Positions 38,948-39,073 of a stretch of 39,224 bases of DNA are shown piece after piece; position 1 is the stretch's first letter, and each line of letters starts with the position of its first letter. Origin of the DNA: Acidimicrobiia bacterium (GTDB lineage Bacteria > Actinomycetota > Acidimicrobiia > IMCC26256 > JAGPDB01); contig JAGPDB010000018.1 in assembly GCA_018057765.1 (NCBI GenBank), forward strand, positions 1-39,224, given 5' to 3'. Made by a program: the position numbers and the translations under genes. The notes below the pieces were generated by a model. It had not been told where the DNA came from. It saw only the letters and a list, made by a program, of their open reading frames with translations, and searched no databases.

Positions 38948-39073
38948 ATCACCGGGGGCGGTGACAAACCTAATTTTTTAGGTTACAAGTGTAAGAGAGT
39001 ACTTTCGGGGGCGGAAGTTATTCATTAACTTAGACTTTTTAAATCCTTCGTCGGGGTGGCGAAGGATTTTTTT
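38948..39073 (+). ncRNA. Candidate small RNA with three G-rich hairpin loops
   Basis: About 125 bases bounded by a strong promoter and an intrinsic terminator, with no open frame. Hairpin 1: TCACC/GGTGA around loop GGGGGC (38949-38964). Hairpin 2: AACCTAA/TTAGGTT around TTTT (38967-38984). Hairpin 3: ACTTTC/GGAAGT around the same loop GGGGGC (39001-39018). The terminator hairpin (39041-39069) has loop TCGGGGTGG. Three of four loops thus carry CGGGG followed by GG, striking in this AT-rich DNA. I do not recognise an Rfam family. On the opposite strand the loops would be C-rich like actinobacterial 6C RNA, but promoter and terminator fix the + strand. Confidence 0.7.
39041..39073 (+). terminator. 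Intrinsic terminator of the small RNA
   Basis: A perfect 10-bp stem, AAATCCTTCG with CGAAGGATTT, encloses a nine-base loop (39051-39059) and runs into seven T residues (39067-39073). It separates the small RNA from the next gene. Confidence 0.85.

Follow-up and report, generated by a model that had tools for sequence, protein, structure and literature searches.

A candidate small RNA with repeated GGGG hairpin loops, probably restricted to one actinobacterial genus

Two known systems invite comparison with an RNA that carries the same loop several times. The 6C RNA (also B11; RF01066) is an actinobacterial small RNA (sRNA) with repeated homopolymeric C-rich loops, and binding by CsrA/RsmA requires a GGA core in the loop. 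The element described here resembles 6C RNA in its actinobacterial origin and its repeated homopolymeric loops, but those loops are G-rich on the transcribed strand whereas those of 6C RNA are C-rich. The nearest described mode of action belongs to two other RNAs, RosA of Bacillus subtilis, a stand-alone sRNA with three G-rich regions that sponges RoxS and FsrA (PMC8216469), and RsaI/RsaOG of Staphylococcus aureus, whose G-rich regions bind C-rich sRNAs (PMC8383071). Both are stand-alone RNAs in which two or three G-rich regions pair with C-rich RNA. However, they come from another phylum, only the RNA here holds its G-runs in tight tetraloops, both have C-rich partners whereas none was found here in 46% of the genome, and RosA is longer (~229 nt, compared with ~120-126 nt).

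The locus lies on contig C18 of a genome of 1.76 Mb, assembled into 51 contigs (GC 36%); the whole contig, 39,224 bases, was analysed and is referred to as the window. The predicted RNA occupies positions 38948-39073 on the forward strand, 290 bases past yqhQ (DUF1385). We consider it highly probable that this is a real, unrecorded and genus-restricted small RNA, as a sequence-only reading of the window had suggested in calling it a candidate new small RNA; that suggestion is well supported by the absence of a matching Rfam family, a structured homologue in a congener and a terminator of rare strength. If correct, a streamlined lineage of actinobacteria that has received little study would gain an sRNA with clear boundaries that is open to testing.

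The sequence agrees with the compact RNA first described, with a promoter-like site, a 17-nt spacer, hairpins and a terminator. The putative promoter (38913-38941, forward strand) pairs TTGACT (38913-38918) with TATTAT (38936-38941) across N17, matches consensus at 10 of 12 positions and predicts a start at ~38948, although the match is not significant alone (11 such sites compared with 8.5 expected in the region). A perfect inverted repeat read from the sequence, ACACTT-N10-AAGTGT (38910-38931), surrounds the -35 hexamer and is a possible operator or repressor site. A shared promoter motif, TTCGCAnTAT, was weak and was set aside. No small open reading frame is evident within the RNA, and an ATG at 38940 overlaps the -10 hexamer. 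In the predicted fold, hairpin 1 (UCACCG-GGGG-CGGUGA, 38949-38964) and hairpin 3 (ACUUUCG-GGGG-CGGAAGU, 39001-39018) both carry CGGGGGCGG, at 38953-38961 and 39006-39014, a sequence with no further copy in the genome. Between them stands hairpin 2, with AACCU/AGGUU arms (AACCUAA-UUUU-UUAGGUU, 38967-38984), and the RNA closes with a strong intrinsic terminator (39041-39073) whose loop region carries CGGGGUGG. The four loop Gs of hairpins 1 and 3 have an unpaired probability of 1.0 and the terminator loop is GGGGU, which bears out three exposed G-runs. The two hairpin loops are identical, as proposed, but the thermodynamic loop is GGGG and not GGGGGC, the outer G and C being paired. The terminator stem has the predicted 10 Watson-Crick pairs, or 12 if U-G and C-G are counted, and seven Ts come after it. 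The fold is far more stable than that of shuffled sequences (-46.9 compared with -26.8 +/- 3.4 kcal/mol; z -5.95, no shuffle equal). The RNA was assigned to the forward strand because that strand has the T-run and the stronger fold (-46.9 compared with -30.1 kcal/mol on the reverse), and because hairpin 3 and the terminator contain U-G pairs, which would become A-C mismatches on the opposite strand.

These features are rare in the genome. Three CGGGG motifs in 126 nt have a Poisson probability of ~1e-6 against the window background. In an 818-kb sample (~46% of the genome), scanned with simple ORF calls in place of curated annotation, six intergenic hairpins, counted on both strands, had a loop with a run of four or more Gs; half of the six belong to this 126-nt element. 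Only 11 intrinsic terminators were of comparable strength. A strict terminator scan of the window returned the terminator of this RNA as its sole match, and no extra copy of the RNA was found in its own genome.

Known identities were searched for and rejected. Rfam 15 gave no family across the 39 kb at curated cut-offs, and the best sub-threshold matches in the window had E values of 0.12 or worse, none credible; the sequence-only reading, too, could not match the RNA to a known family. Both homologues align weakly with L10_leader (RF00557; scores of 19 and 21.5 bits, cut-off 44), mainly through the terminator, but most of that leader's own hairpin is unaligned, and the gene downstream is VWA-like rather than rplJ. 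The 6C RNA covariance model matched none of the three genomes of the genus, and with the family absent, pairing with 6C RNA was also rejected. Neither tRNA nor tmRNA was detected, a phage or plasmid origin found no match, and the terminator pattern was absent from viral contigs. Among the genomes of 84,980 species, this pattern occurred in eight stretches, one in the congener KLAP143 and seven elsewhere that are likely to be chance matches, being GC-rich (60-71% GC) and lacking a T-run after the stem.

The genus comprises three genomes: the one studied, a second (G001) and the metagenome-assembled genome 'Actinomycetota bacterium KLAP143' (G002). Among 40 relatives, blastn found a match only in KLAP143 (contig CAUJDU010000113.1; E 1.1e-5), in the terminator portion. 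That contig starts inside the RNA, downstream of hairpin 1, so the homologue is incomplete; it retains AACCU-GUA-AGGUU as the form of hairpin 2, a hairpin tipped with UCGGGGCGA and a terminator with UCGGGGCGG. GGGG is kept in the loops of hairpin 3 and the terminator in both species. When the two homologues were aligned by structure, with Ns for absent loop bases, hairpin 3 showed an altered stem in which pairing survives two double changes and one single change but is lost at two pairs, and the terminator showed one double change keeping a pair. In this alignment 95.8% of cells remain paired, and sliding the partner strands abolishes pairing; the covariation shuffle control is weak with two sequences, one of them truncated (66/500 shuffles as high). 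Hairpin 2 is less certain in KLAP143, because the free fold of the truncated piece favours a different pairing for the AACCU arm. A covariance model matched KLAP143 at E 1.3e-15, with the KLAP143 sequence itself among those used to build the model; the blastn match is independent of it. On 58 genomes of the order it recovered only the two homologues, under strict filters that may drop weak matches, and none in G001 or the 55 further genomes. Conservation, in the form of a structured homologue, is limited to two of the three genomes of the genus, and the RNA is probably genus-restricted.

The mechanism that we rate highest, at about an even chance, is base pairing by the G-loops. The fuller reading that we favour, with a probability that falls a little short of even, is a stand-alone trans-acting sRNA that uses the G-loops as seeds and most likely represses a few cell-surface mRNAs, that of the surface-protein gene on contig C45 foremost. 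We infer an RNA of ~120 nt with a promoter of its own, from which transcription would run rightward until the intrinsic terminator. Its three stable stems would expose GGGG runs as seeds, these would bind accessible C-rich stretches of other RNAs, and the pairing would most likely keep a few mRNAs for cell-surface proteins from being translated. First among the candidates is the C45 mRNA for an LPFTG-anchored protein, in which CACCGCCCCC, next to the Shine-Dalgarno sequence, would pair with hairpin 1.

The perfect 8-nt complement, CCGCCCCC, has three sites in the genome beyond the RNA. The first falls within a coding frame, the second at the end of a contig and the third in the leader of this C45 gene, whose product is a surface protein with an LPFTG (LPxTG-type) anchor. 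The C45 site stands 11 nt ahead of the start codon, adjoins AAGGA on its upstream side and touches the Shine-Dalgarno region. Hairpin 1 extends the match to 10 perfect nucleotides (CACCGCCCCC against GGGGGCGGUG), and the leader is predicted to be unstructured. Among 778 called start regions, a set that includes the C45 region on account of its having already been a match, this leader forms the best loop duplex, and its predicted cofolding gain is -16.4 kcal/mol (shuffle mean -6.1; 2/300 shuffles equally good). The congeners have no orthologue of the gene. We regard the C45 leader as the best single target guess, a tentative one that is unlikely in absolute terms. The predictions specify exact bases in both partners, and if the loops do pair with leaders, a loop such as UCGGGGCG might co-vary with CGCCCCGA in a leader.

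A second candidate, at C1:15067-16650 (L044), encodes a secreted protein with a signal peptide and repeats that look FN3-like by eye. C-runs occur ~100 nt upstream, beside the Shine-Dalgarno sequence and in codons 4-6, and the predicted cofolding gain is -17.3 (0/100 shuffles equally good). One of its C-runs forms the loop region of a short hairpin (ACAG-TCCCCC-CTGT). Genome-wide, GGGGGCGG complements with at most one mismatch number 144, the two RNA copies included, compared with 140 for the reversed pattern, and over the 778 start regions the real loops pair no better than reversed loops. The sequence-only reading had named pairing with C-rich leaders, or more broadly titration of a protein or pairing with C-rich targets; pairing is plausible and has a concrete candidate in C45, but complementary sites are not enriched genome-wide.

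Of eight genes with a run of five or more Cs between -60 and +15, seven are called secreted (p 2.6e-6). This value is inflated, since the C45 gene had been selected, a pilin is counted in duplicate, one run derives from a tRNA and a FabI-like enzyme seems to be miscalled, and a surface-protein regulon was not accepted on this basis. With doubtful cases removed by hand the link covers 4/6 genes (~p 0.003), G5 runs are likewise enriched (p 0.01), and in the KLAP143 sample C-runs before secreted-protein genes were not enriched. The link to secreted proteins is a lead only. A speculative extension, which we think improbable, is that the G-tetraloops act together to repress surface genes whose leaders carry C-tags, namely those of the LPxTG protein, the FN3-like protein and perhaps type IV pilins; if true, it would reverse the usual arrangement of a C-rich seed against a G-rich Shine-Dalgarno sequence, and G-loop seeds acting on C-rich leaders could tie surface-protein output to one regulator. 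Tandem, near-identical type IV pilin genes (C1:236893-238136; L132) share a common leader with CCCCCGTTCTCGAGGG, and predicted pairing of the RNA with this leader did not exceed shuffles. The contig end at C37:7716 (L034) is GC-rich (GTAAGCCGCGCCGCCTGTCCGCCGTGGGCGG...), unlike the remaining genome, and may be an assembly artefact.

Among the alternatives, the three G-loops might instead sequester another sRNA with C-rich loops, in the manner of RosA. RosA and RsaI are precedents for binding C-rich sRNAs (PMC8216469, PMC8383071), and three identical repeated seeds would fit titration, but no clear sRNA with C-rich loops was seen between the genes of the sample, which covers 46% of the genome, and 6C RNA is missing from all three genomes; we consider such a sponge unlikely.

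We likewise think it unlikely that the element is simply the 3' end of the rho-yqhQ operon, its hairpins and terminator leaving a stable 3'-UTR fragment with no trans role. Between the yqhQ stop (38658) and 39041 there is no other strong terminator, as this explanation would have it, but a promoter-like site lies directly upstream of the RNA, the homologue is not adjacent to yqhQ in the KLAP143 assembly, and G001 keeps the order rho-yqhQ-VWA with the RNA element absent between.

The identical hairpins could also be repeated sites for an RNA-binding protein that the RNA titrates or scaffolds, and the recurrence of one loop on differing stems, retained in the congener, is consistent with this. 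No protein known to bind GGGG tetraloops was identified, however, and loops of GGGG and GGGGU lack the GGA core needed by CsrA/RsmA and repeated in the loops of CsrB/RsmZ-type RNAs; we think protein binding quite improbable.

The gene downstream of the RNA bears on the last alternative. It had been taken for prfA, the RNA being placed in a rho-prfA interval, which is incorrect: the gene starts at 39194, and its promoter region, leader and N-terminus (39112-39224, forward strand) align with their counterparts in the two congeners, which belong to a surface-protein gene of VWA type (MQHPELINRV, MLNSTFLHRA and MHTSQLVKRV). Cut by the contig end after 10 codons, it is probably a VWA surface-protein gene, judging from this leader and N-terminus. 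In KLAP143 the homologue also precedes the VWA gene, whose product has a VWA domain and DUF7507/DUF11 repeats, but a small LPxTG-like gene intervenes, the VWA gene has a separate promoter and leader that are conserved across the three species, even in G001, where the RNA is absent, and predicted pairing of the RNA with the VWA leader equals shuffles at best, so that a cis-acting leader or attenuator of this gene is very improbable. The VWA-gene leader itself contains a conserved inverted repeat at 39151-39167, CCAAATGTCCTATTTGG, with similar forms in the congeners (CCAATTGTCCCATTGG; CCAAATTGTCCAAATTGC).
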